From a virus: 64,000 nt of DNA. The position numbers and the translations under genes were made by a program. The DNA lies in IMG/VR virus record IMGVR_UViG_3300032334_002236, positions 1-64,000 of that record; one strand, given 5' to 3'. How positions within the stretch are numbered: the stretch's first letter is position 1; every line of letters starts with the position of its first letter. Below are positions 3,011 to 51,700 of this stretch, one piece after another. The notes under the pieces were generated by a model, which saw only the letters and a program-made list of their open reading frames with translations, made no database searches and had not been told where the DNA came from.

Positions 3011-3778
3011 ATGAGCAAAAAAATAGTAATCATCACAGGTGGCTTCGATCCCATCCATAGCGGGCACGTGGCCTATATCAATGCAGCCAAGAAACTGGGT
3101 GATGTCCTGGTAGTGGGAGTCAACAGTGACATCTGGCTTAGACGCAAGAAAGGGCAGGAATTCATGCCCTGGAAAGAACGAGCAGCTATCATCGAAGCCA
3201 TGCATGATGTGGATAAAGTCATCGCATTAGACGATTCAGATGGCAGTGCCAATGACGCCATACGTCAGGTCTTGAACATGTATCCAGATGATTACATCAT
3301 CTTTGCCAACGGCGGCGATCGCAATAGCAACAACATTCCTGAACAGGACCAGGACTGGCCCATGCGTGTGGGATTCGAGTTCGGAGTGGGTGGAGAAGAC
3401 AAGAAGAACAGCAGCAGTTGGATCCTGGAGAAATGGAACAAACACAGGACAGAACGCATCTGGGGGCATTATGATGTGCTGGCCGAATATCCTGATGTCA
3501 AGTTGAAAGAACTGGTTGTGGAACCAGGGCGTTGCCTCAGCTACCAGCGTCATTTCCAACGTGCTGAGGTCTGGTTCGTGCGCAGTGGTACAGCCCGCAT
3601 CATCTATGACTTTGGTGACCGTGAATACACAGAAGTGTTGAATGCCGAGTCTGTGTTCGTGATACCACGCAAAGGCTGGCATCAGTTGATCAATCCTGGT
3701 GCTGTGCCATTACACATCATCGAGATACAATATGGCGAAGCATGCCTGGAAGAAGACATCGAGAGAGTAGCACAGTGA
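3011..3778 (+). CDS. Nucleotidyltransferase fused to a mannose-6-phosphate isomerase-type cupin
   Basis: The predicted protein is 255 aa. Residues 1-145 are a cytidylyltransferase-like (RfaE/TagD-type HIGH) domain: the motif GFDPIHSGH is at 11-19 and SSSWILEKW at 134-142 sits where the ISTT motif falls in TagD enzymes. Residues 150-255 closely follow the C-terminal cupin of ManC / type II phosphomannose isomerase: WGHYDVL, LVVEPGRCLSYQRHF, RAEVWFVRSGTA, IPRKGWHQLINPG and IIEIQYGE in the right order. Such fusions prepare activated sugars. The likely product is a nucleotide-activated hexose or mannose-like donor, but the exact substrate cannot be read from the sequence. I chose ATG 3011 because the nucleotidyltransferase fold starts immediately there; an in-frame ATG at 2984 would add nine residues. 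The stop overlaps the GTG of the glycosyltransferase (GTGA), so the two are translationally coupled. Confidence 0.8.
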   Translation: MSKKIVIITGGFDPIHSGHVAYINAAKKLGDVLVVGVNSDIWLRRKKGQEFMPWKERAAIIEAMHDVDKVIALDDSDGSANDAIRQVLNMYPDDYIIFANGGDRNSNNIPEQDQDWPMRVGFEFGVGGEDKKNSSSWILEKWNKHRTERIWGHYDVLAEYPDVKLKELVVEPGRCLSYQRHFQRAEVWFVRSGTARIIYDFGDREYTEVLNAESVFVIPRKGWHQLINPGAVPLHIIEIQYGEACLEEDIERVAQ

Positions 3779-4827
3779 AAACCATCTATATAATCCCTAT
3801 AGAGCCCATCGATCAGAGATATACCAAGCAATGGTATGATAACATCCCCAAGTTGCTGGACGGCAAAGGCTATCAGGTGGTCACAGTGGATGGTGATCAG
3901 CCCCAGACAGGAACCACGACAGGTGCGTTCCTGGATTTTGCTGTGACTAACCAGTACAAAGCTAGCCAGGCGCAACGTGTGGCAGAGATGTTTACTGCTG
4001 GCAAGATCCAAGCTGGCGACAAATTCCTGGTCACAGACGCTTGGAACTTCGTGATCACTGCCATCAGATACATGAGCGACTTGTTGGACATACCGGTAGA
4101 GATACATGGTATCTGGCATGCTGGTGCTTATGATCCCACAGACATCCTGGGTATGAAGATGAGCAAGCCCTGGCCCTGGCATCAGGAACGTGCCTGGTAC
4201 CATGCATGTGATTACAACTATTATGCCACCAATTTCCACCGTCGCATGTTCCTGCACAATCTGGATATTCCAGATGCATTTCACAGCAAGGCCATACGTA
4301 GCGGACAGCCACATGAGTATATCATACCTGAAGTGGAAAAGTATTGCCAGAAGGAACGCAACGGTCGTATCATGTGGCCGCATCGTTTGAACAGCGACAA
4401 GCAACCTGACATCATCCGTGACATTGCTACAGAAATGCCAGTAACTATCACGCAAGGTATGGATCTACCCAAGGACGAATATTATCGCTTGCTGGGTTCA
4501 GCAAGCGTGGTATTCAGTTGCAGCCTACATGAGAACCTGGGTATCAGCCAGATGGAAGGGGTGCTGGCAGGTGCATTGCCCATAGTGCCAGATCGCGCCA
4601 GCTATTCAGAGATGTACCCAGATGTGTTCAAGTATCCTGCAGAGTGGACCAGCAACTGGCACAGCTACAACCAGTATCGTGAATATATGTTGGGATTCAT
4701 CCGTGAGCGAATCGACAACTATGATCGTTATTTGCCAGCCCTGATGGAATGTAAAAACAAATTGATTAGTGACTACTTAAATGCTAATATAATGATCAGT
4801 AAACTTACAGGAAAACACAGTGACTGA
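3775..4827 (+). CDS. GT-B glycosyltransferase resembling tRNA-queuosine mannosyltransferase (DUF3524/GTDC1-like)
   Basis: This 350-aa protein starts at a GTG that overlaps the previous stop by 4 nt. The C-terminal half has a retaining GT4-type EX7E motif (E253 to E261 in HENLGISQME) followed by AGALPIVPDRASYSEMYP. The centre has IMWPHRLNSDKQPD (199-212). From memory, the queuosine-tRNA mannosyltransferase family has very similar blocks: ILWNHRWxxDKNPE, then HEFFGxxxLEA, then a Pro-Asn-Arg-xx-Tyr-Pro-Glu segment. The N-terminal half (VTDAW near 86-90, ATNFHRRMFL near 151-160) also matches the general DUF3524 layout. It sits between dpdA and folE and beside a sugar-activation gene. I therefore infer that it transfers a sugar, perhaps to a 7-deazaguanine base or nucleotide. 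It could instead glycosylate protein or glycan. Confidence 0.7.
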   Translation: MKTIYIIPIEPIDQRYTKQWYDNIPKLLDGKGYQVVTVDGDQPQTGTTTGAFLDFAVTNQYKASQAQRVAEMFTAGKIQAGDKFLVTDAWNFVITAIRYMSDLLDIPVEIHGIWHAGAYDPTDILGMKMSKPWPWHQERAWYHACDYNYYATNFHRRMFLHNLDIPDAFHSKAIRSGQPHEYIIPEVEKYCQKERNGRIMWPHRLNSDKQPDIIRDIATEMPVTITQGMDLPKDEYYRLLGSASVVFSCSLHENLGISQMEGVLAGALPIVPDRASYSEMYPDVFKYPAEWTSNWHSYNQYREYMLGFIRERIDNYDRYLPALMECKNKLISDYLNANIMISKLTGKHSD

Positions 4828-5509
4828 GATAAGCAAAGTTATCAAGAAGCGTTTGGAAGAAGATGGCAAGCGTTACTGGGCTGGTGATAATATCAGCGAG
4901 TATATCAACCCAGAAGAACGCACTGAATTGATTGCAGAACTGCATAAGAAGTTTGATGCGGTGCTGGATAGCTTAGTGATCGATCGTGAGAACGATCCCA
5001 ACAGCAATGACACTGGCCGTAGATTGGCCAAGATGTATGTCAATGAGCTGATGCGAGGTCGCTACTATCCAGCACCGGATGCAACTGCATTTCCCAATGA
5101 AATGGAAGACCGATATGAAGGCATGTTGGTTGTTCGCAGTGAATTACGTAGTGTTTGCAGCCATCATCATCAGCCTGTTACAGGCGTTGCCTACATTGGT
5201 ATTCTTGCAGCAGACAGACTTATCGGTCTCAGCAAGTATACTCGCATTGCTCAGTGGTGTGCCCGTCGTGGTACTCTGCAAGAAGAACTTTGCAATGATA
5301 TTGCAAAACAGATCATGAAGGCCACTGGTAGTGCTGATGTGGGTGTGTATATCCAGGCTACTCACGGATGTTGTGAAAATAGGGGCATAATGGCACACAG
5401 TAGTTTGACACAGACTACTGTGTTAAAGGGCAGCTTCTTTAACGATCCAGGCACCAAGAAAGAATTCTTCGATAATATCAAGTTACAACAGGAGTATGCA
5501 AGCAGATGA
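4820..5509 (+). CDS. folE: GTP cyclohydrolase I
   Basis: This 229-aa protein is of normal length for FolE, which opens GTP to dihydroneopterin triphosphate, the first step towards 7-deazaguanines and folates. Visible signatures are LAKMYVNELMRG (69-80), the zinc and catalytic motif CSHHHQP (C113, H115-H117), IGLSKYTRIAQWCARR (135-150) and HGCCENRG (182-189) carrying the second zinc Cys. The start is the GTG at 4820, overlapping the glycosyltransferase stop by 8 nt. The 3' end (5477-5510) is repeated almost exactly at the end of the next gene. The product feeds QueD and QueE downstream. Cytoplasmic homodecamer by family knowledge. Confidence 0.95.
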   Translation: MTEISKVIKKRLEEDGKRYWAGDNISEYINPEERTELIAELHKKFDAVLDSLVIDRENDPNSNDTGRRLAKMYVNELMRGRYYPAPDATAFPNEMEDRYEGMLVVRSELRSVCSHHHQPVTGVAYIGILAADRLIGLSKYTRIAQWCARRGTLQEELCNDIAKQIMKATGSADVGVYIQATHGCCENRGIMAHSSLTQTTVLKGSFFNDPGTKKEFFDNIKLQQEYASR

Positions 5510-7116: not shown

Positions 7117-7674
7117 ATGACAAAAACCATAAATGAGTCCATGAGAGGGCTGGGAAACAAGATTATCAAACCCTTTCAACCTGTCGTATACAAGTATACC
7201 AGCACTAAAGAATACATCGACGCATTTCCCTGTGCCTATCGTCAGTGGAGAGCAGACAGCCATTGTAATACCATACACGGTTATTCATTCAGCATGAAGT
7301 TCTATTTCGGCACCAACGATCTAGATGTTCGTAACTGGGCAGCAGACTACGGTGGATTAAAAGAACTCAAGAAGATCCTGGAAGAACAGTTTGATCACAC
7401 ACTGCTTGTAGCTGAAGATGATCCAGAGCTAGCAACATTCAAACTGCTACAGGAAAAACACATGGCCAAGCTGACTATCCTGCCCAAGCTGGGCTGTGAA
7501 TCACTGGCAGACATGTTGTACAAATACATCAACACAGTGTACATTCCAGACATGTGGGGACCAGGTGAAGCAGAACGCTTGTGGTGCTATCGTGTGGAAG
7601 TTCGTGAGACGCAGGCTAACATGGCGTTCCGTGAAGGACATCGTGAATGGAACGAAAATCTGGAGGATATGTAA
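7117..7674 (+). CDS. queD: QueD-like 6-carboxy-5,6,7,8-tetrahydropterin synthase
   Basis: This 185-aa T-fold protein would convert dihydroneopterin triphosphate (from FolE) to 6-carboxytetrahydropterin. Visible QueD features are the catalytic Cys motif CNTIHGYSF (C50, H54), the QFDHTLL motif (D93-H94) and GCESLADMLYKYI, where QueD has PTxEN. Oddities: the first zinc His, expected in FxxAHR, is Tyr here (FPCAYRQW, Y41), and the third zinc His (HGH) is also Tyr (HGY, Y56). Only one of the three usual zinc ligands is plainly conserved. It may use other ligands or be a diverged paralogue. The C-terminus is extended and charged. queE follows with no gap. Confidence 0.8.
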   Translation: MTKTINESMRGLGNKIIKPFQPVVYKYTSTKEYIDAFPCAYRQWRADSHCNTIHGYSFSMKFYFGTNDLDVRNWAADYGGLKELKKILEEQFDHTLLVAEDDPELATFKLLQEKHMAKLTILPKLGCESLADMLYKYINTVYIPDMWGPGEAERLWCYRVEVRETQANMAFREGHREWNENLEDM

Positions 7675-8517
7675 GTGTTCGGAAAAAATGAAATCGTAGG
7701 ACAGAAATACTTCAACGATGCTGCTGAAGATCAGCTATTCGTCACTAGCATCTTCTATACACTACAGGGCGAAGGTCCTTATCGTGGTGAACCTGCTGTA
7801 TTCCTCAGACTAGCCAAATGCAATCTGGCTTGCAGTTTCTGTGACACCTACTTCGACGGTGGTGATTGGCTTACGTTCGATGATGTGTATGATCGCATCA
7901 TGGCGGCTGCTGTCAAATACTTTGGTGGCGAGGTACCTGGATGGTTCGACCAAAAGGTGGGATTAGTAATCACAGGTGGTGAACCCATGCTGCAAAAGAA
8001 TCTGGGTGTATTCTTGGAAAAAGTCAAGAACCTGTTTGCCTGGACACAGATTGAAAGCAATGGCACCGTATGGCAGGATATTCCAGCAGAGACTACACTG
8101 GTATGCAGTCCCAAGTGTTCAGAGAAGAACGGGCAACCTGTTAAGTATCTGAAGCCCAATAAAGATGTGATGGATCGTGCAGATTGTCTCAAGTTTGTCA
8201 TGAACGCTGACACTGACAGTCCTTACAGTGAAATCCCAGATTGGGCACATGAGTATGCGGCTGCTGGCAAGAAAGTGTTTATCAGTCCCATGAACATCTA
8301 TAACCACGAGCCACAGAAGAGCAAGCAGATGCGTAGTACCAAGAACGATATCACTATGGAAGAACGCAGTGCAGTTGATGAGGTCATCAGCTTCTGGGAA
8401 GAAGGGTTGTTGAACATGCCCGAGAACCAGAAGAACCACGAGTATGCTGCCCAGTATTGTGCTCGTAACGGATTTGTACTCAACTTGCAGATCCACTTGT
8501 ATGCGAGCCTTGCATGA
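7675..8517 (+). CDS. queE: 7-carboxy-7-deazaguanine synthase (radical SAM)
   Basis: This 280-aa protein uses a GTG start directly after the queD stop, with GGAGG upstream (inside queD). The radical-SAM cluster motif is CNLACSFC (C49, C53, C56; CX3CX2C), preceded by FYTLQGEGPYRG, the typical QueE entry segment. ITGGEP (99-104) is the SAM-binding GGE motif, and IESNGT follows. QueE rearranges 6-carboxytetrahydropterin into CDG using SAM and Mg2+. With FolE and QueD the route from GTP to CDG is complete in this window. The length is somewhat above the usual bacterial 220-250 aa because of an insert around residues 165-235. Confidence 0.93.
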   Translation: MFGKNEIVGQKYFNDAAEDQLFVTSIFYTLQGEGPYRGEPAVFLRLAKCNLACSFCDTYFDGGDWLTFDDVYDRIMAAAVKYFGGEVPGWFDQKVGLVITGGEPMLQKNLGVFLEKVKNLFAWTQIESNGTVWQDIPAETTLVCSPKCSEKNGQPVKYLKPNKDVMDRADCLKFVMNADTDSPYSEIPDWAHEYAAAGKKVFISPMNIYNHEPQKSKQMRSTKNDITMEERSAVDEVISFWEEGLLNMPENQKNHEYAAQYCARNGFVLNLQIHLYASLA

Positions 8518-14033: not shown

Positions 14034-15123
14034 AACTGAATAGCTTGATGGTATCAGTCTGTTGTGGCTGCAAGGCTTTCCTGTAGAAATCCAGGTTGTC
14101 TTGCAGCCTTTTATCGTTGGGATCCAGTTCCACTGCCTTGGCTCCATATTCCAGAGCTTGTTGGAAATCGCCCACATAGTAACTGCTAAGTGCAGCCAGA
14201 TCCAAGGGCTTGGGTCCCCAGCTGACAGGATCGTTGGTGTACAACGTGGTCTTATTGTTGATGAATAATGCCTGTCTGGCAGCATATTGGCACTCTACCC
14301 ATAGCCCCTGCTTGTGGCAGAAATCAGCCAGATCCACCCAGGCATCTCTGCCATGTGGATACACTGCTGACGCTTCACGATATTGCTTGTGAGCTTCTGA
14401 CAACCTGTCCTGCCCTTCCAGGCATTGTGCTAACTTACGACGGATGTAATCCTGCTCGTAGTCAGTGTATCGCTCTGCCCAGCTGAGGCATTTCTTCCAT
14501 GCTTCTTCTGCTTCCACCCAACGCCCATTGAAGTTTAATTCACGGGCATAATAGAAGGCATTGCGCTGGCAGTAGGGATCTTCTTTCACAGCACATTCCA
14601 ACAGTTGCATGTAATTGCCGCGGCTCTTGGTGGGATCTGGATGATGTTTGACCAAAAGCTCTGTGGTGAAGGCATATTTTTCCGGGGCACGTGGATCTGA
14701 TTCCACGTATTCATGGCAAGGGTAATTCCAAACGAAACCAAACCTGGCGTGTATCTTGCTGGTATTGAATATCAGGTTATTGCTCCAGTCATACAGATAG
14801 CTGAGACGGGTGGTATCTGCCTCCCAGGCATCTTCCACTATCTTGCGCCAGCCTGGTGTCATGACTTCATCCAGGTCGATGCTGACACATATGTCCACAT
14901 CTTCCGGAACTAGTCCCAGTGCGATGTTCCTGGCGATGTCGAACCTCCAGGGTTTGACCCTGATGTCGTGTACTATGGCGCCACAATCCCTGGCGGTTTG
15001 GGCGGTGTTGTCTGTGCTTCCAGTGTCACAGATGATGACCATGTCGGCATCTGTACAGCTTTCGCAGAATCTCTTGACGAAATGTTCTTCGTTCTTGCTG
15101 ATGGCGTATACTGCTATTTTCAT
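14032..15123 (-). CDS. GT2-family glycosyltransferase with TPR repeats
   Basis: This 363-aa protein starts like GT-A family 2 enzymes: MKIAVYAISKNEEHFV, then ICDTGSTDNT (32-41) and a DxD-like metal motif in SIDLDEV (about 85-91). After about residue 180 there are repeated helix pairs of TPR type (FYYARELNFNGRWVEAEEAW, ALSSYYVGDFQQALEYGAKA). The fold suggests transfer of a sugar to a protein or glycan. Its neighbour on the same strand is a tail fibre, so fibre or capsid glycosylation is possible, as is modification of host surface sugars. An in-frame fusion of GT2 and TPR is common in bacteria and phages. Confidence 0.85.
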   Translation of the reverse strand: MKIAVYAISKNEEHFVKRFCESCTDADMVIICDTGSTDNTAQTARDCGAIVHDIRVKPWRFDIARNIALGLVPEDVDICVSIDLDEVMTPGWRKIVEDAWEADTTRLSYLYDWSNNLIFNTSKIHARFGFVWNYPCHEYVESDPRAPEKYAFTTELLVKHHPDPTKSRGNYMQLLECAVKEDPYCQRNAFYYARELNFNGRWVEAEEAWKKCLSWAERYTDYEQDYIRRKLAQCLEGQDRLSEAHKQYREASAVYPHGRDAWVDLADFCHKQGLWVECQYAARQALFINNKTTLYTNDPVSWGPKPLDLAALSSYYVGDFQQALEYGAKAVELDPNDKRLQDNLDFYRKALQPQQTDTIKLFS

Positions 15124-22074: not shown

Positions 22075-30558
<8,484 letters not shown>

Positions 30559-39751: not shown

Positions 39752-42700
39752 TATGCGCTCCTGATATATCTGGCTTGTATACTGTCCGATTCATGCAGTG
39801 TCTGACCAGGTTTGATCCATAGATGACCTTGTCTCAATTTCTGCCCATTGGCTACAGTGACCAACTGTCCGGCCTTGTTAGTTATCACCACATCTATCAG
39901 CTGTGTAAAGATGCTGAAACCTGGTGTGCCAGTCAATGTGATTCCTGTGGCATCATTACCCGTATCAGCAGCAATCACGCCAGTGAAGGCAGTGAGTGCA
40001 TTTATGGATGTGACTATCCTTGATCTATTAGTGGCAGTATTTGTTGTCAACAACAGGTTGACTATGGTGCCATTTATCAAGATCTGGGTGCTGGTACTGG
40101 CCGAGGGTGCAGTCATGGCACTACCAGGCACAACGGTAATTGCACTGAGTGGACTGGTACCTTGCTGGAGACCAGTATATCCCAGATCAGCACCGTTGCT
40201 GTCAGTAAATCCACCACTTATATCCACAACTATATCCTGGCCTATCAGATCACTCAGTTTGATGCCAGTGGTATCACTGCCACTGTCTATGGCTGTGACC
40301 CCGGTGATGCTGCTGACAGCATTTATGGCATTGGTTATCTTGCTGCGATTAGCTGTGATATTGGTTGTGAGATAGCCTATGCTTATGTCCTGCCCATCTA
40401 TCCTGATGCTGCCAGTTATCTCAGTACGCGGTGCAAGCATGCTGGTTCCAGCAACAACATTCACAGCAGCAAATGATCCCAATGTCAATCCCAACCATGT
40501 GGCATCTATGCCTTCAGTCAATAATTCTGTCTCTGTGCTCTGTGGTATGTTCATCATGTCGCTGGCATCTTGAAGTATGCTGAAAGTGTCATGCCTATCT
40601 GCTGCTCCAGTTCCAGCCGTGCCCCTTCTGAGTAATCCCAAGCGGCTGTTGGCCAGATCCTTGACTCCATATGTTATGCGTTCACCGTTGACAAACACCA
40701 CACCAGGTTTGTTCACACTGGGATCACTGTCTGCCAACCTGCTGAGATCTGCCACATATATCCACTCATCCGCCTGATACAGATCTTGTGTGAGATAGGT
40801 CATATGGTCCTGTTTGATCACCTGGTATGTGGTGGTATCAGTGAGATCCTTGAATATCCTGAACTTGCTCCAACGGTTGCGGTTGGCACTGCCGAATGCT
40901 CTAACCACGATGATGTCAGCATCAGCAATATATTGATCGAATATGATCCTGTTCTTGCCTATCAGGCGATAATCCAGATATGGCATCTGTAACATGCCGT
41001 TGATGGTTATCATCACTGCACCTGGATCTTCTATATCCACAGGCAACACGAATGGCAAGTCGGTCCTGATCTGGGATAACTCGTTATCGAAAGGACTGTC
41101 ATCCAGGATATCGCCATCGAACCCTGCGTTAACATTGACATATGTGCCCATGTTATTTCCAGTGTACACCCAGGTCTTGAGATCTATCATGTCGTGGTTT
41201 GTCAGTGTTAACACATGCACACGATCAGTGTCATGTAATCCCAAGCTGGGATCGATAGTCACTGAGTTGGTGCTGTGTATGCGATAATCGCTGTAACTGC
41301 TGTCACTGATTATGATCTGGCTACCTGGTAACGGAGTCACATTGAATTGTATCTGGGGCCATTGGCCTGCCACACGTACTACCTGATATTCTATGCGATT
41401 CTTCATGGTAATACCATCTACTACCACGACAATGTCGCTGTCCCGTATCAGATTGAGATTGGAAACATATCTAAGCTGGCTGAGACTGAATTTGCTGGTC
41501 ATGCCATTGGCAGTATAATAAGCCTGGCTGCTGGGTGTCAGATAGGTGTTGTTTACTCTCACGATGGTATGTACTATGGCTGGTTCTTCCTGCAATACCG
41601 GATCAGCCAATACCAGGTTGTAATTGACTGGAGCGCCTGCTGATGTGGAATAAGTGTATTCGTTTATACGAGCATAGCTACGCAGTCCGTTATCATAACC
41701 ATAGCTGTGCAATGATATCTCATCATTCAGCTTGGGCTTATGTGCCAATGTGACCAACACACCATTATCAGTCTTACTCAGGGTAAAGTCAGTATAATGA
41801 TCTTGTTGTATGCGCACATACACCTGTTTGCAATCGACCAGGCTGACATCTGGCAGCAGGAATGTCCTGGTGACGCCGTCACTGATATATCTGGCATTGC
41901 TGCTCTGTGCAAATCCCGTGCTACCCCAGATATTGATCTGCAGAGTAAGGCCAGCAACTGCTGGATTAGTCAATATGACATTCTTTCCTGACAGATCCAA
42001 TGTGTAATCCAGATCCAGGTCAAGTGGTCCATATTTTTCCACCGCCACCCAGACAAACTCGCTGCCTGCCTGAGGCAGTGAAACATCGCTCCAACTGTAA
42101 ACTTGTTGGATACCATCTGACACATACGCCACCTGGCGTATCTCAGGATTGATATAATGTGTGAGCATATCTGTGGCGCTGGTAGTCACTGTTATGTCCA
42201 GTGTATCCATCAATCTGCCTGGCAACAATTCTTCAGGTGCTGGCACATTATTGGCATCCACGAATTGGCCGCCTTCAGTGATGATATCTTCTGGCCTGAT
42301 ACCCAGCATCTGGTCTGTGAATTGGCTGGTATAGATGGTATCTATGGCTTGTGGACCACGTATGATATCCAATCCCAGTTCATCACGATATACAGGATCA
42401 TATGGAGCCTGATCATAAGCTGGCTGGTCATATCCGCTTGCCTGATCGAATCCTGGTCCTATCACTTGCACACCAGCATGCTTGATACCGGCCATCAGTT
42501 GGCTGAGATCACGACCAGCTTTGCCTGGACCAGTCTGGTAATAACTCCAGATACGGTCAGCAGCATTGTCCAACCAATTGCCTGCATAAGGTCTCAATTT
42601 AGCAGCATCGAAATCGTTGCCACTGACAAAACTTTCAGTAACCACATAGGCCACTGGTCCAGTATGATCCCACAGGCTGTCACGATAGATCACCACATCT

Positions 42701-45700
42701 TCCTTGTTGTAACTGGTGTCAGGTGTCCATATCCTTATTATCATCAGTCTGAAGTTCAGCATGTTGAACCGGTTGTTGCTGACATGGTCCACCACACACC
42801 TGAATGCTGGATCGATGTAACTCACCACCTGATCCAATTTGTAACTGGTATCAGGTTTCCAATCTTGTACCTGATTGCTGTAGGTATATCTGTCGAATTT
42901 CAGCTGGGTCTTGATGTTCCTGGCCAGGCCCAATCCCAGGTGTACCGCAGCAACAGCAGGCGTGTCATTTATGCCAGTGATGGTCACTGATGCTTGTGTA
43001 TATCCTTTACCAGGATCGGTCACTGTGATCTTAGTGATCACACCGTTAACCACGGTTGCTTTGGCCTTGGCACCAGTACCATTGCCATATATCTTGACGC
43101 TCACTGTGCTGGCAATATATCCTGTTCCAGTGTGTATCATACGAACACGCTCTGCACCATAAGCATGGTTATTGAGCCAAGGTGCATACACTGTACGGGC
43201 CAATGCTACCTGATCTATCTGGTTGTTAAGTTGTGGACTACGATACCTGCTGGCATCTATATTGTAATAAGGCTGCAGATCAAAATCCGTTATGTCCAGT
43301 TGAGCCACGTCTGGATTTTGCATGTTGTCGTATCTGGCCACATATTTTTTCAGATACACATGGAAAGGTTTGATCTCCTGGAAGAACTCGCTTATGCTGT
43401 TTTGTATATCTGGCAGGAACACTGGAAGTTGGTCCAGTTTTCTCACTCTCTGATACATGTCCACCAGGCTGGTTTTCATGACCCAATCTGCATCCAGGGT
43501 CTGGCTCAGTTGCAGGTTCATCAGGCTACGCATGATGGATTTGAGATCAGTACGGAATTCCTGGGTCATCAGATGTTCTATCACAGCTTGGAATATCACG
43601 CTTACTTCTTTATTGCAATCTTTGCCATAACTGGTGCTGTCCAAACTGCTGCCGTCCAGGCCCAGACCATTCTGGCTGTTATCCCATAGGTTGTCGCTGA
43701 ATGACACAGTGGCACCTTGTTGAGCCAACAATGTCAGACCGTTGCCAGTTACCAGGCACATCTTCCAACCACCAGCATCACTATTACGGATGTATATGAC
43801 ATCCCCTAATGCCAATGGTAGGTTGTTGATCTCACCTTCATTATCGATGTTGTAATTGGTCTTGGTATCCTGTGTATATTCAGGACTATACCAATCAGTA
43901 CTGGTCCAATACTTCCTGACATCATAGGTCTGTACTCTCACCAGGTACCAATAAAATTTATTCTGTGGATCTTTTCTCAGTTCCCTGATGCTCCATCCAC
44001 CAGACACATCTGAATCTTGGCTTACAAGTACCTTGGCACCCAAGGTGTATAATCTCTGATCCAGGTAACCCAATTCTGTCAGATCCTGGACGCTTGTGAC
44101 ATAATGGCTGCTGTCTGGCACTGGATCATGGCGACCCAGAGCAGCCAAGAAGCTGGGCCTGATCAACGTGATGCAGACATTCTTACAGAATTCATTCAGT
44201 TGTAAGAAATAACTCTGGCGTGCCTGGTATAGATCACCAAACACTGTCTGCCTGGGTCTCACACTGGTGCCGTATCGTTGTTTTTCCGGCAATCTGGTGT
44301 CAGGCACAGGCCTGTCCTGATCGTCTTGCCCAGATAGGCTGTGGCGTATCTTGTCATAGATTTCTTGGTTAGTTCCCAGATCGCTGCCATCGTCGAACAC
44401 CGCCCATTCACTGTGAGTGACACTTGTATCTGACTCACTTGTGCGTAATATCAGGCTGGTGTCTGAACCTATCAGGCCCTGGCAATTATATAATCCCAAC
44501 AAGTTTGTGTCAAGCACACTGATATACGCCTGATCCTGCTGTCTGGGACTGGCTAATATCTGTTCCATCTCTATGGTGCTGACGTCGTTGAGATTGCTAT
44601 TTCTCACCCAGAAATAATAACGCACCTGTGCTGCACCAGTGATATTGTCCACGATGGTGCGGGTACTGTACACATCTGTCTGTACATACAAGGGCTTGGT
44701 TTTACCATTGGCTGTGGAAAATTCCAGTGGCGGAACATCAGATTCTATCCACTGATAGATGCTGATGCTGCTGTTGGGGAAAGCATTGTTCCAGGTATTC
44801 AGTTTGAAGATGATGTCACCCTGATCCTGATCCATCAATTTGATGTTATTGGTATCCCACCAAGTTTGTCCCACTTGTTGGTATCCCCAACTGCTTCTTT
44901 GATCTGTATTAAAAGTCAGTCTGTTGGGCGCATTGGTATAAACTGCTGGATCGGTATTACTGATGTAATTTAGTTTGCTGGCCACTGTGGGAGCAAATTT
45001 GCTATGCAAAGGATCCAGCACTATCAGATCTTGCATCTTGGTACGGGTATTACGATCATAAAGATAAGCATGCGTGATACGGCTGCTGTCATATTCTGCA
45101 CCTTTGCGTCGCAATGTCTTCCATACACGTTCAGCAACGGGATTCTTGTAGATGTATAATGTGCCCTGTGGTTGGTCGTTGACATTGCCACTGGGGCTGC
45201 CGATGGCTAACCAATTTTCACTGATAGCTACACCTGTGCCAAATTTGCTCTGTGTGGACAGATCTTTATGGCTCAATGTGCTTGCGTACACATATTTGTC
45301 TGGTCTGTCAGTGTCGCCAGGTCCCTGCAATTCATATAGATAGGCTGTGCCACTACGATAGGTCTTGTCTTTGAGGTCCACTAATGTGCGATTATCGAAT
45401 GTCAATGCACCATTATCGAATGTTGTTATCTTATAGTTGTCACTTACGCTAGTTCCCACCAGCAGCAGTTGCCCATCAGGACTCAATGTTATCCTTTCTC
45501 CGAATTTTTCTGTGTCCTGGGTCAACGGGCTCAGTATAAGCTGGCTATGGTTCCAGGAACTCATGCCCAACAGAGACAACACATCTGTCAATCCATTACG
45601 TAGGCGCATGATAGCTGGAGGTGCTGCTATTATTTGTATCTTGCTGGATACCAGAGCAGCAGATATTCCCAGTATACCAGCATTGTTTATGGTATCCAGG

Positions 45701-48700
45701 ATATCCTGTGTGCTGCCAGTGGCAAATCTCAACAGATGATCATTTATATACAAACAACTGTTGGCTGGTATCACCGGTAATACCACATTGCTGGTCACCT
45801 GATTGTACTTGAGATGTGTATCCAGGTAACGGAAGATAGCGCCATTCCTGTTGTTGGTATAGCGATATCCAGGAGCACCCACCACCAATTCAGCACCGGT
45901 CTGGTCTAATTTTACTTCTTGACCGAATTCCAAGGAATCATTCACCAGAGCAGGCAATACGTTTGCTGTACTGATCAGCCTGGAGTATTCAACACTTATC
46001 TGAGCACCAGCATCCACAGGTTGTGACAGTACCACTATCTGGTAACTGATGTTGCAACTGTTGAAATTATAGGGATTGGGATCAGTGTACAACACCACAT
46101 TGCTGATGTCACGATCAGTACACAATTTCAAGGTGTCCTTGTCCACATATTGCACATAGTATGCAGTGTTGTTGACAAAATTTGCAGGCACTGGACCACT
46201 GATCTGTACTTGATCCTGATCTGCCATGCCATGATCCAATACGGTCAATACTGCTTGCCCGTCGATCTCTATGATCCTCTGTATGACTAAACTTTGCCTG
46301 CCCAGCATATAATCTGTTCTTATCTGCTGATCCACTGTTATAACAGGATCCATGTAATAGGGTTCGCCAGTGGATATGGTATTAGTATTGTTTTGGCCCA
46401 GGACATCTATGTGGAATTTGGTCTGTGATGCAGTAGCTTTTACTATTCTGACCTCACGTTCCAGTATCTCTACTGTTCCATAGCCACCATAACTCTTGTG
46501 TCCCACAGCTATACGCCTACCTGTGGCATCTGTGCTGATGCTCGATCCCCAATCACTACTGTTGGTACCCTCGTATGCTCCCACCAGTTTATAGTAATCT
46601 CTATAATGGATGGTTATCACACTGTCAAGATCTGGAGCTACTGTGAAAAAGATGTTGTCTGGATTGGGACTTAGTGTATAATCCAGGTTGGGTATCTGCA
46701 CTACCTGATCTATCATCACAGTAACATCATTGGCTTGCAACAGTTTTGTCTGTGCAGCACTGGGGAAAGCATATTCCTGGCTGGTGCTATCACCTGTATA
46801 ACTGACGCTACCAGATATCACAGTGGTGTAACGGAAGCTGTAAAGCTGCCCATTGACGCTATCTGTCACATACAGCCAATTGCCATCCTTGCTGACAGTC
46901 ATACCAGCCATATCACCATCAGTGAATGCATAATAGATTATCTGTTTGATGCTGATTTCACGATCCACGATTTCAGCCACGTGTACTATTCCCCGGCCAG
47001 CACAAGTGCCTGAGATGCACACCCGATCTTGATCACTGATACTGATTTCTTTACCGAAATCACTTATGGCTGCATTTGCAGGATTGAGCCTGGATGTCTG
47101 GTTCCAGTTGTTACTGGTATCCAATGTGTACAGATAAACTGCACCTGTTGAACCTCTGCCCGGACTGTTGACCACGCTGTAATTTTGTCTGCTGTTGATC
47201 ACCACCCGCTCACCGTAACGGTCCACCGGGTGGGTGTATATGGGACTGATCATCTTGTCGAATTGCCAGCTGTCTGTGTTCTGTAACACGCTGTAATCTT
47301 TAGGATCATGATCGATGTAAACTATGTCTCCATTCTTCCAACCACGGGCTGGTTGGAAATCTCCGAAACTAAATTTATCGGTGAATCTGACATTTACCAG
47401 TTTATACACCAGTGAACGGATGGTCTGTGTTCCTATGCTGATGTTGTTCTTGACGTTTACTGTGAAGTATGCCCCTGCCACTGCTTTAATGGTGTAGAAT
47501 CCTGCCAGATCCACCTGGTTATTGGTGTTATTCAACACAGTACTGTGCAACATGATCACATCTAATACCTGGAATCCATGGGCAATATCTGTGGTGAATG
47601 TCAGTTCGTTAGGTGCAGTCTGGGAACAGTTTGTCACATAGATGCGATCAGTGAGAGTGACACGATAGGTGGCCCATTGACCAGCATTGTCGTTAGCCAC
47701 CCATACCAGGCTTCCTTCACCCAATAAGCTGTTGATACTGTCTATCTGATCTATCTTCTGTATGTTGAATACTGTGGCGCTGACTTCACTGCTACGCACC
47801 GGCCCTGTATCACCTAATATCTGTGGTTTGGCAACACCTGCAAATATATTCTTGTCATATTCATATGGACATTGTATCAGATCAGTTTGACGATAATTGT
47901 TGGCTCCTGGCAGATCTTGATCAGTGGCATCTTGGAAAGCCAGAGCATACTGGTTATTGATGCTGCTGATTCCTGCCAGATCCAGTTCGAACAGTTGTTG
48001 TTGTTGTGTATTACCGAATCTGTCCAGGCGTACTGCAAACAATTCCTGGATCTCTATACTAGTATCCAGGCTCTCATTCTGTGCGCGGATGAATGCCTGC
48101 ACCACTGCCTGGCTGCCTTTCTGTTTCAGCATGCCCAGATAGAATTTGTGTTGGCTGACCACATCCAATCCCAGAGCATTGAGATATCTTCTCTTGCTGA
48201 AACCAGTGGCATGCCTGCCATACATGTCTGCCAATGCGTTGACATTCTGCTTGTCCACGTCATAGAATCCCAGGAATTGGCTGGCATCGTATGCTGGATT
48301 GGGTATCAACTGATGTTGCAGCAGGTCACCTGAAATCTCATACCATAGACCGTGGTTGAATTTACCAGCACCAGGTGTGAAGTTCTTGGCAGTGTAATAA
48401 TGGTTCTTGTGGAAGGTCACGTCGCCGCGATAATAATCAGTGTAACTTTGCCAATTTTCCACAGGCCTGACATTTATCAGATATCCTGGTGCATAAAGGC
48501 TGCCGTTCCAATCCTGTGTCTTATTGCCTTGTATCTTGATCCTGCTCTGGCGATTGCCCATGACAGGATCAAATATCACATCATTGAAAACTGTGCGGTT
48601 GTCCAGCACCAAAGCATGTTCATATTGTACCACGCTCAGGTCCAACAGGTGTATGCCTTTGTTCTGGGATCTGGTCTGGATATGGAAATCGTTGCCATCA

Positions 48701-51700
48701 CGGTATATGCGATAGTCGCTGCTCTTGAGCGTCCTGCCATCGCTGTCTACCAGCCTGGTATAATCGCTGCGATTGCTCAGTGTTTCCACAGCACCATAAT
48801 CGCTGTGGAATTTCAAGGATACACCAGCAGGTGTCACACTGATCACCACGTCCTGACCCCAGTGCTGTTGGTTCCAGAACAGGAACTCTTTCACAGCTAG
48901 TGTCCAATTACTCACAGTCTGTTGATCGTCTAATATATCATCGAATTGGAATCCCTGTTGTGCAAGATAATGTCCATACCCCATGAGGAAGTTCACAACA
49001 GCCTGTTTGTTGGCCAATATCTGTCCATAAGGCATGCTGATGACGTTTGTGCTGAATTTTTCGTAGATCAGTATGCTGTCTGTTCCCACAGTCAGGGTGT
49101 AGGAATTATTAGTATCCAACACAGGAGTCAGCAGGAAGTAGGGCTTAACGGTATCGAATCCGTATATCTTATAAGTGTCTCCTATCCGTACTATGGTCAC
49201 TGCGCTGTAGATGGCACGGGCAATCACACTGCTCTTGCTGAAAACCACATGATAATTTTCATTAGGGATCATTATGCTGTTGTTGGTGGTCTGTGGGCTG
49301 ACCTGATCTGCCAACAATATCAGCTGCTGTTTGTCTGTATAACCAGCCAGTTTGTACACCAGATTGATCTGGCTGTTTTCCACGAAATCATACCAGGTGT
49401 GTTGCAGTTGCTGGTTGCGTGACAGAATGAAATCTCTGACCCACACGTTAGTTCCAGCATGGAAATCTGTGCTGTCACTCAGCTTGTGATTCCATTCACG
49501 TGTATTGGTCTGTTTATCCACTAATTGTCCGGTCAACACATCACGGATCTGGTCTCTGGTATTGAACCTGAGGCTGGCATATTCGGCAGGGCGAGCTAAT
49601 GCACAAGCTATCTGTATGGCAAAAGGATAATAGCTGCTGCGCCTCCAGGAATTCTCAGCAGGTGCCCAGTCGCCCACTTTCCAATCATTAGTGGTACTGA
49701 AATCCTGATAATTCTTTACCAGGAAACTGTCAGGGCTTAACAAGTTGCCATGTGAATCCACAGGGATTATCTGGCTAAGTCCTGGCCTGCTGTATCTGAC
49801 ATCTAACCTGGCCTGGCCAGGATTGCTGCCCCTGATGAATCCCATCTCCAGATCCATCCACATTGTCATGTTGGCATTGGTATATGGAGCTGAGCCATAA
49901 GCTGCTGTCCACCAATCAGGCATGTCGGCAAAGCCCAACATCTGCCAGGGCTTGTGGTGTGGTTGATCAGTATCATAGAAATATTGATAGATGCCACGCC
50001 AATGCCCTGGCACCTGCTCACTGTATATGACATCACGGCCACTATTATAATTAATGGTGAAGGCATCATAACCTGTGCCAGTGTTTTCAAAGATGTCGAT
50101 GGCAAACTGCCCGCTCCATTCCAACAGGCTCTGACCGATGAATTTGTTCCATTCGGTCATGGTATAATCAGTCTTACGGAAAGCGCCAGGCTTCATGCTA
50201 TTGATGCCAGTGTTCTCATCATCCCTGTAAAATGTCTGGCAATTATTGTATACCCTACGCTCATATTCCATGAGGATGTTATCGCGATAATCACCATATG
50301 CTGGAGTGATGCTGCCATCATGTCCTATGATCACCTGGATGGGTGTGGTATAGGTGTTGTCAGTTTCTATCACAGGCATGCTCAGCGGATACAATCCCAG
50401 CTTGCTGGGTGTGGCAGGTATCACATTCGCCTGTGTTGATGCATATTCCAGGATGGTTATGGTATCATTGAGGAATATGGCCAGGTCATTGCTGAGTGTC
50501 AATGTGTAACCCTGTACTGTATAATCTTTGCCACGCAGCAACAATATGTTATTGCGATAGGCCAGTATGGATGTGTAATTGCTTTCCTGTAGATCATAAT
50601 TCTGGTTAAGATTATATGACCTGTATCCCAAGTTGATCACAGGATACTGGTTGGAGTAATCAGGCAGTCCATGGGCTGCCATGTCAGTGTGATAATAAGG
50701 ATCGGTAGGTTTAGCATCCTGCGATAATGTGGCTAATACCAGATCCAAACACTGCCTGATATTGGAGGTATCAGCAAAATTGGTATTATTGATCTGATCA
50801 TGTAGATTGATCATGAACTGGCCATATGCTGTCATGTTTTGCCGTATGGCACTGATAATATTGCAATCCGGATTGAGGCTTAATGTGGTATGTGCCCACA
50901 TTCCAGCACTATGTTGCAATAGTTTACCAGGAACACCAGTGAGATCGATGTCACGGCTATTGTTTATACCAGATGCTTCGCCTGAAAACTCCATGCTATT
51001 GCTGGATATTTCTATCAGATGGTTTCTCATCTGTCCCAATGTGACATCTGTTATCAGTTCGTTCTTATTGTTCACACCCAGATTAACTGGTATCTCATAA
51101 GTGGCATAAGTGTCTCCAGCTATGCCTGCGATCATCACTGTCAAACGATCACCTACTGATAAGTCTTGATGCAGGTGTAGGGTGACATATTTGTCTTGTA
51201 CGATTATGTCATAACTGTTTTTATCCATGAGGCGGGCATTGACCCGTATCTTGGCATCTATCAATCGTCCACTCTCTTCATAAGTGGTCTTGAATATGAA
51301 GTCATTCACACGAACAATGTTAACATCTACGCTGTATACTACTTTTTGTCTGCTGCGTTCCCTGACCCGATCCCAGCCTGTGAGATACTTTATTCTGCTG
51401 TCAGGATCGATGCTGGCAGCATATCCTGTGCGGATGTGTCGTTGTGTGTTCTTGCTGTCTTGGGTGTAGTTGAACACATCTGTGTGGTAATAATTGGTGA
51501 AAACTATGTCACCTATGTTACCGATGTTCTGATATTTTAATGGTATTCCCAACACCTTATCTGATGTGCCAGTTGCATCAGCATAGCCAAACAAGCGGCT
51601 GCCTTTGAAATTGGTGCCCAGATATTTCTGGTTGTGCCCAAAGCTGTCAGTCTGCTTGTCAACTATCTCGAACAACGGGGGCTGTGGTATTCCCAACTTC

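Follow-up and report, generated by a model that had tools for sequence, protein, structure and literature searches.

Does a phage that appears to place a 7-deazaguanine in its DNA also attach a sugar to that base? This question is raised by a gene cluster near the start of IMG/VR virus record IMGVR_UViG_3300032334_002236. The stretch analysed here, referred to as the window, is 64 kb out of the 86.9-kb record. The cluster contains a dpdA-like DNA-guanine transglycosylase gene, genes of 7-deazaguanine synthesis, a glycosyltransferase gene and a fused nucleotidyltransferase-cupin gene. A sugar on 7-deazaguanine in the phage DNA is very likely, if the insertion of a ready-glycosylated base is included. 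The glycosyltransferase probably puts this sugar on the 7-deazaguanine in DNA, after insertion. The genes on which the argument depends are the following.

250-1794, + strand: dpdA-like DNA-guanine transglycosylase, divergent subfamily (conserved TGT-type motifs and profile-profile comparison)
2128-2652, + strand: QueD-fold (T-fold) paralogue, distinct from queD (phrog_17812, AlphaFold2 model, Foldseek)
3014-3778, + strand: HIGH-type nucleotidyltransferase (approximately residues 1-115) and ManC-type cupin (approximately residues 143-254), ATG start (PF01467, PF01050)
3775-4827, + strand: GT-B glycosyltransferase of the GT4 kind, QTMAN-like, GTG start (motifs, AlphaFold2 model, Foldseek, hhalign)
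4820-5509, + strand: folE, GTP cyclohydrolase I (PF01227, E 8.9e-38; phrog_2197, E 8.1e-43)
7117-7674, + strand: queD, 6-carboxytetrahydropterin synthase (PF01242, E 1.4e-16; phrog_2389, E 4.4e-36)
7675-8517, + strand: queE, 7-carboxy-7-deazaguanine synthase (phrog_2076, E 1.1e-51; Radical_SAM, E 4.9e-7)

Linkage of the glycosyltransferase to DpdA

Each scan of a sequence collection returns the closest 80 relatives of its query. With the window glycosyltransferase as the query, these are 80 viral loci at 52-73% identity. Pooling the scans made with the glycosyltransferase and with other members of the cluster yields 204 loci with distinct glycosyltransferases. Full flanks, meaning at least 6 kb upstream and at least 4 kb downstream, are present in 111 distinct loci. 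Conservation of the glycosyltransferase in over 200 distinct loci places the observation well outside what chance would give.

DpdA or DpdA2 is encoded in 108 of the 111 full-flank loci and the QueD-fold paralogue in 103. The same loci contain folE (92/111), queE (61/111) and the cupin (27/111). The linkage also holds in the reverse direction, with the glycosyltransferase present in 30 of 30 full-flank DpdA loci and in 41 of 42 QueD-fold-paralogue loci. Of 194 DpdA-glycosyltransferase pairings, 193 have both genes on one strand. The three full-flank loci without DpdA or DpdA2 are Phosso, L346 (a partial match) and phage PhiXhv; Phosso, a cultured phage, has a DpdA homologue elsewhere in its genome. 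In the control scan with the nucleotidyltransferase-cupin, 3 of 80 loci contain DpdA, and the identical three contain the glycosyltransferase. The first-pass annotation would have been contradicted by sugar genes lacking dpdA in most relatives; the glycosyltransferase does not show this pattern.

The association is retained in cultured phages with different gene orders. DpdA and glycosyltransferase genes are directly adjacent in the PA5oct/Paride group of Pseudomonas phages, and the QueD paralogue and QueE follow. The order in ACP17 is queD, folE, DpdA2, glycosyltransferase, QueD paralogue and queE. In Xanthomonas phage X1 it is folE, glycosyltransferase (26% identity), DpdA2, QueD paralogue and queE. 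Synechococcus phage BUCT-ZZ01 contains queE, queD, folE, a second GT4, DpdA2, the QueD paralogue and the glycosyltransferase (99.0%, E 6e-18). Bacterial genomes from GTDB contain 22 glycosyltransferase loci, 20 of them with DpdA. In the Azospirillum, Devosia and Shimia loci, a Vut_1 transporter gene lies directly upstream in place of the que genes; we take Vut_1 to be the family of the queuosine-precursor transporter YhhQ. The glycosyltransferase is found in none of the PLSDB plasmids.

Several further genes recur near the glycosyltransferase. A few clusters encode a second GT4-type glycosyltransferase, which could attach another sugar; it lies at L400:4364-5707 (BUCT-ZZ01), L016:9158-10519, L098:15082-16374 and L344:12284-13477. 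A phosphoribosyltransferase gene (PF00156) is present in 85 of 203 glycosyltransferase loci and in 0 of 77 controls (for example L099:14166-14708 and, in PAC2, L082:14330-14764); its product could recycle the guanine released by DpdA. A protein of approximately 175 residues with no Pfam match is encoded near the glycosyltransferase in 102 of 203 loci and in 0 of 77 controls (for example L330:6769-7293). The homologue in Xanthomonas phage PhiXhv-15 (L085:7749-8852) lies beside a glutamine-fructose-6-phosphate aminotransferase gene and a gene like N-acetylglucosamine (GlcNAc)-malate deacetylase. This locus is possibly an amino-sugar modification of another kind.

DpdA and the proposed order of insertion and glycosylation

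The product of 250-1794 is assigned to DpdA by its motifs and its homology to DpdA2 and TGT, and it is predicted to exchange bases in DNA. It contains the TGT-type catalytic motifs (invariant D100 SGG Q105, D146 and D294), and GDSGGFQ, D146 and FDCASPF..ANGQ are kept in 23 homologues. The protein has no Pfam, PHROG or NCBIfam match, and PF01702 is unmatched. In profile-profile comparisons, the window DpdA family aligns with the DpdA2 family at 99.3% (E 1.8e-20), and the DpdA2 family aligns with bacterial TGT at 96% (E 4.9e-9). The direct hhalign comparison of the window DpdA with TGT is weak (13%), and its alignment pairs SFDCASP..ANGQ with the TGT nucleophile block MFDCVMP..RTGQ. The DpdA2 of ACP17 matches Vibrio phage nt-1 (E 8e-38). 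The hit lists of the two DpdA classes do not overlap. Two unlike DpdA classes share one glycosyltransferase family.

This sharing bears on the order of the steps. Eukaryotic TGT inserts queuine, and on that model the glycosyltransferase would act on the free base (or nucleotide) and DpdA would insert the finished product. The window DpdA subfamily always occurs with the glycosyltransferase in full-flank loci (30/30), which fits an unusual base. The Foldseek matches of the glycosyltransferase also include tetrahydrobiopterin glucosyltransferase, whose substrate is a free pterin. However, the pairing of one glycosyltransferase family with two very different DpdA classes argues against this model, as does the association of the DpdA2 class with unglycosylated dPreQ0 in Vibrio phage nt-1 (PMC6884629). 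Glycosylation before insertion is unlikely, and glycosylation of the inserted base is the preferred order.

Predicted synthesis of the modified base

FolE, QueD and QueE are all encoded in the window cluster. FolE is present in 14 of 14 related records and QueD in 13 of 14. No QueF above the cut-off is found in the 14 viral records, and the single sub-threshold match falls inside a FolE gene. QueC is not found in the phage's own record, which may be a fragment. It has no match in 19 of 20 related records, including the complete Phosso, PAC2 and ACP17, and one weak match in the remaining record. In the 14 records, three of which are complete phages, neither QueA nor PF01702-type TGT is matched. 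Because FolE and QueD are present, QueF is not found above the cut-off and QueC is nearly absent, the phage-encoded route ends at 7-carboxy-7-deazaguanine (CDG). A host QueC could act after the phage-encoded steps.

The known phage 7-deazaguanine DNA modifications are dPreQ0, dPreQ1, dG+ and dADG, and they occur with DpdA or DpdA2 (PMC6884629). Like those systems, the present one combines FolE, QueD and QueE with a DpdA-type transglycosylase in a single cluster. Unlike them, it has no QueC or QueF, and it has an extra QueD-fold paralogue and a glycosyltransferase. In Vibrio phage nt-1, which has DpdA2 and QueC, dPreQ0 was found (PMC6884629). This phage is not among the matches listed for the glycosyltransferase or the QueD-fold paralogue; the sugar step therefore goes with the QueC-less route. 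The text of PMC6884629 contains no word beginning with "glycosyl". In the passages found in the MIJ3, Callisto and Paride papers, neither restriction results nor nucleoside analyses are given for the DNA of these phages.

The open reading frame (ORF) at 2128-2652, overlooked in the first-pass annotation, encodes the most conserved partner of the glycosyltransferase. The sole known family of this protein is phrog_17812, to which no function is assigned. Its Pfam and PDB profile searches return chance matches only, and the fold was settled by structure. In the AlphaFold2 model, the predicted local distance difference test score (pLDDT) of the core is mostly at least 90. The top Foldseek matches are E. 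coli QueD (4ntk) and other PTPS proteins, with a probability of 1.00 and a template modelling (TM) score, on the target, of approximately 0.70. By sequence profiles alone, the alignment with QueD is weak (71%). His66, His87, His89 and Glu160 are invariant and may be residues of the type with which T-fold enzymes bind zinc and a guanine-like ring. In Cellulophaga phage phiST, the paralogue lies beside folE, queD and queE with no glycosyltransferase nearby; its role is therefore earlier than, or separate from, the sugar step. A 2023 paper on phage deazaguanines reportedly proposes a CDG decarboxylase, which may or may not be the QueD-fold paralogue.

The phage QueD carries HGY at the position of the canonical HGH motif (62 of 76 queD-family proteins in related loci). 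It retains the (F)DH block; the QueD-fold paralogue retains HxH and, by eye, is without the (F)DH block. The two proteins may be complementary subunits of one enzyme.

Relationship of the glycosyltransferase to QTMAN

As a single query, the glycosyltransferase has no useful match in Pfam, NCBIfam or the solved structures, and profiles and structure are needed to place it. PF00534 (GT4) is matched by 36 of 44 aligned relatives (best E 3.9e-5). The AlphaFold2 model, built with 41 alignment rows, has a pLDDT of 91 and a predicted TM score (pTM) of 0.88. Its Foldseek matches are of the GT-B/GT4 kind and include glycogen synthase, BshA, MshA, SenB and tetrahydrobiopterin glucosyltransferase. The EX7E motif HENLGISQME and the block HR.N.DKQP are conserved in the family. 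R204, K209, E253 and E261 are invariant in the alignment and are presumably the donor-site and EX7E residues of GT4 enzymes.

The first-pass annotation had pointed to a resemblance to the DUF3524/GTDC1 family, to which QTMAN, the tRNA queuosine mannosyltransferase, belongs. Each of 12 bacterial QTMAN proteins and 29 control proteins was aligned on its own to the phage profile. The QTMAN proteins were retrieved with PF12038, which matches in 22 of the 299 genomes examined in the searched phylum, and the controls with PF00534 from five genomes. QTMAN scores are 95-98% in 12 of 12 cases (E 3e-8 to 5e-13). The generic GT4 controls score 72.5% or lower in 28 of 29 cases. The remaining control, at 96.8%, is a QTMAN protein itself, with a length, E-value and alignment identical to those of the QTMAN of that genome. 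The profile-profile comparison (hhalign) of the phage glycosyltransferase with QTMAN gives 98.4% (E 8e-15) over 181 columns in the catalytic half. The resemblance reflects real kinship: QTMAN outranks all generic GT4 controls, and the matches are not limited to generic GT4 families, even though PF12038 is unmatched. As judged from sequence, the phage enzyme is QTMAN-like, and the Pfam-defining N-terminal half of QTMAN is not detectably shared.

The phage enzyme and QTMAN are both of the GT4 kind, have the blocks HR...DK.P, (A/S)LHxxxG(I/L)xxxE and P.R.(S/A)Y.E in common, and are both tied to a 7-deazaguanine. Unlike QTMAN, the phage enzyme has no PF12038 match and is linked to DpdA and phage DNA rather than to tRNA, and the queuosine cyclopentenediol acceptor is absent on the phage side. 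The profile kinship, together with the presence of a separate TGT in the bacterial carriers, would suit a phage enzyme that mannosylates queuosine in the tRNA of host or phage, like QTMAN in animals. This is very unlikely, however, as the glycosyltransferase travels with DpdA or DpdA2 and not with tRNA queuosine genes, the 14 records (three of them complete phages) have no PF01702 or QueA match, and the PF12038 N-domain is unmatched. Phage DNA is preferred as the substrate.

Nucleotidyltransferase-cupin and proposed sugar supply

The ORF at 3014-3778 matches both PF01467 (E 7.6e-14) and PF01050 (MannoseP_isomer, E 2.6e-25), in agreement with the proposed fusion of a HIGH-type nucleotidyltransferase to a ManC-like cupin. 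Matches to TIGR02199 (heptose-1-phosphate adenylyltransferase, E 2.8e-20) and TIGR01479 (GMP_PMI, E 7.2e-23) are both below cut-offs. The cupin had been described as following ManC motif by motif, and this is true of part of the metal set. Three residues of the set are invariant (first His, H180; Glu, E185; last His, H223), but the second His of HxH is Gln182 here and is variable in the family. Like the C-terminal cupin of ManC (GDP-mannose pyrophosphorylase/phosphomannose isomerase), it matches PF01050 and conserves Q.H..R.E.W and WH. Unlike ManC, it does not conserve the second metal His, and its fusion partner is a HIGH-type nucleotidyltransferase with heptose-1-phosphate adenylyltransferase as the closest family.

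A cupin is present in 39 of 203 glycosyltransferase loci and is an optional partner. The nucleotidyltransferase-cupin was rejected as a core part of the system, with 77 of its 80 closest relatives lacking dpdA. In 62 of the 80 nucleotidyltransferase-cupin loci, which lie in UvsX/UvsY regions, a different putative glycosyltransferase with weak DUF6716 similarity is nearby. These UvsX/UvsY-associated fusions (L245-L324) are widespread in phages and are perhaps another DNA or surface glycosylation system. In a tree of 100 nucleotidyltransferase-cupin fusions, the glycosyltransferase-adjacent label needs 11 changes versus 26 in shuffles. At least five of the 11 are forced by well-supported branches (the bootstrap had not settled). 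The fusion has therefore been recruited beside the glycosyltransferase repeatedly.

Other sugar genes also differ between loci. A sugar aminotransferase is present in 40 of 203 glycosyltransferase loci, a second cupin-like protein (a cupin by eye, with no Pfam match) in 29 and a sulfotransferase (a weak Pfam match) in 25; each is present in 0 of 77 control loci. The nucleotide-sugar epimerase is not enriched (64/203 versus 18/77 control loci, P 0.19), and the controls also hold sugar genes. The ManC-type cupin and the epimerase occur together in 1 locus versus approximately 12 expected (P 2e-6, with shared ancestry not removed). Because the sugar genes vary between loci, different sugars are expected in different phages, and the sugar probably varies between phages. 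For the phage studied here, mannose is a doubtful candidate. The earlier proposal that the phage activates a sugar and attaches it to a 7-deazaguanine is supported in its second part by linkage and kinship. The case for mannose activation is much weaker, with the fusion optional and 77 of 80 relatives away from dpdA.

In the least credible reading, the substrate of the glycosyltransferase and of the nucleotidyltransferase-cupin is a host surface sugar or a virion protein, and the position of the two genes next to dpdA is accidental. Phages do carry such genes, and the nucleotidyltransferase-cupin is mostly found elsewhere, beside another putative glycosyltransferase and UvsX/UvsY genes. Accident, however, fails to explain a near-obligate linkage in both directions that is seen in bacterial genomes as well as in phages of different hosts, with a shared strand in 193 of 194 DpdA pairings.

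Proposed pathway

In the proposed pathway, FolE, QueD and QueE would convert GTP to CDG. The base would be CDG or a product made from it by the QueD-fold paralogue, unless the host supplies later steps. DpdA would exchange guanine in DNA for this 7-deazaguanine, and the QTMAN-like GT4 enzyme would move a sugar from a nucleotide sugar onto the inserted base. Either the host or a local sugar module would supply the donor; in this phage the module would be the nucleotidyltransferase-cupin. The sugar could be attached to the carboxylate, to a group introduced by the QueD paralogue or directly to carbon 7. We infer DNA (not the free base) as the acceptor, and likewise the order of the steps, the acceptor atom, the identity of the sugar and a role in escaping restriction.

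The logic resembles the glucosylation of hydroxymethylcytosine in T-even phages, in which the base comes first and the sugar is then added in DNA. It differs in the base, which is introduced by base exchange instead of by deoxynucleoside triphosphate synthesis, and in the sugar genes, which vary between loci. The enzyme is of the GT4 kind by its Foldseek list; the alpha- and beta-glucosyltransferases of T4 were not compared directly. To our knowledge, the glycosylated bases described in phages are pyrimidines, and no modified guanine bearing a sugar has been reported from phage DNA.

Several observations weigh against glycosylation of the inserted base. PF12038, the N-domain of QTMAN, has no match in the phage's own record or in the window glycosyltransferase and is not among the families listed for the 44 relatives. 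QTMAN acts on the cyclopentenediol hydroxyl of queuosine; because the phages cannot make queuosine (no QueA), their acceptor chemistry must differ. The PhiXhv glycosyltransferase homologue (23%) has no que genes nearby, and 74 of 203 loci are without any of the sugar genes looked for. The linkage counts cover relatives of approximately 50% identity upward and the named distant cases, and they speak less for very distant relatives.

More broadly, the case is evenly balanced as to whether these loci form a widespread, undescribed class of DNA hypermodification, in which CDG (or the product of the QueD paralogue) carries a sugar that is swapped via exchangeable gene modules. The modules would be the ManC-type cupin with or without the nucleotidyltransferase, an epimerase with a sugar aminotransferase, or an epimerase with the second cupin, sometimes with a sulfotransferase.

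Other features of the window

The first-pass annotation placed two coupled genes between dpdA and folE. The coupling is evident, as the GTG start of the glycosyltransferase gene shares 4 bases with the stop end of the nucleotidyltransferase-cupin gene. However, the interval contains three more ORFs, namely the QueD-fold paralogue at 2128-2652 and the first two listed below. Both coupled genes open where they had been placed, and the quoted motifs GFDPIHSGH and HENLGISQME are found in the sequence.

1797-2138, + strand: ORF between dpdA and the nucleotidyltransferase-cupin gene
2654-2881, + strand: small ORF between the QueD-fold paralogue and the nucleotidyltransferase-cupin gene
Between folE and queD, + strand: small ORFs (ORF listing)

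Read by eye, the remainder of the window has a myovirus character, and its - strand carries genes resembling those for baseplates and tails. Among these genes are ORFs of 4806 and 2827 codons at 39754-54171 (- strand) and 22078-30558 (- strand). A GT2-type glycosyltransferase with tetratricopeptide (TPR) repeats, at 14035-15123 (- strand), lies close to structural genes. No tRNA genes or Rfam elements are found in the window.

Implications

The proposal is directly testable, as cultured carriers exist among Pseudomonas aeruginosa phages (PA5oct, Paride, MIJ3 and others) and among Acidovorax, Xanthomonas and Synechococcus phages. In these cultured phages, the genes are mostly annotated as hypothetical proteins. 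If the proposal is true, sugar-bearing 7-deazaguanine would add a new branch to DNA chemistry, and the enzymes of tRNA queuosine glycosylation would be linked to viral DNA. Novel routes of escape from restriction, and novel targets for type IV restriction, would also be predicted.

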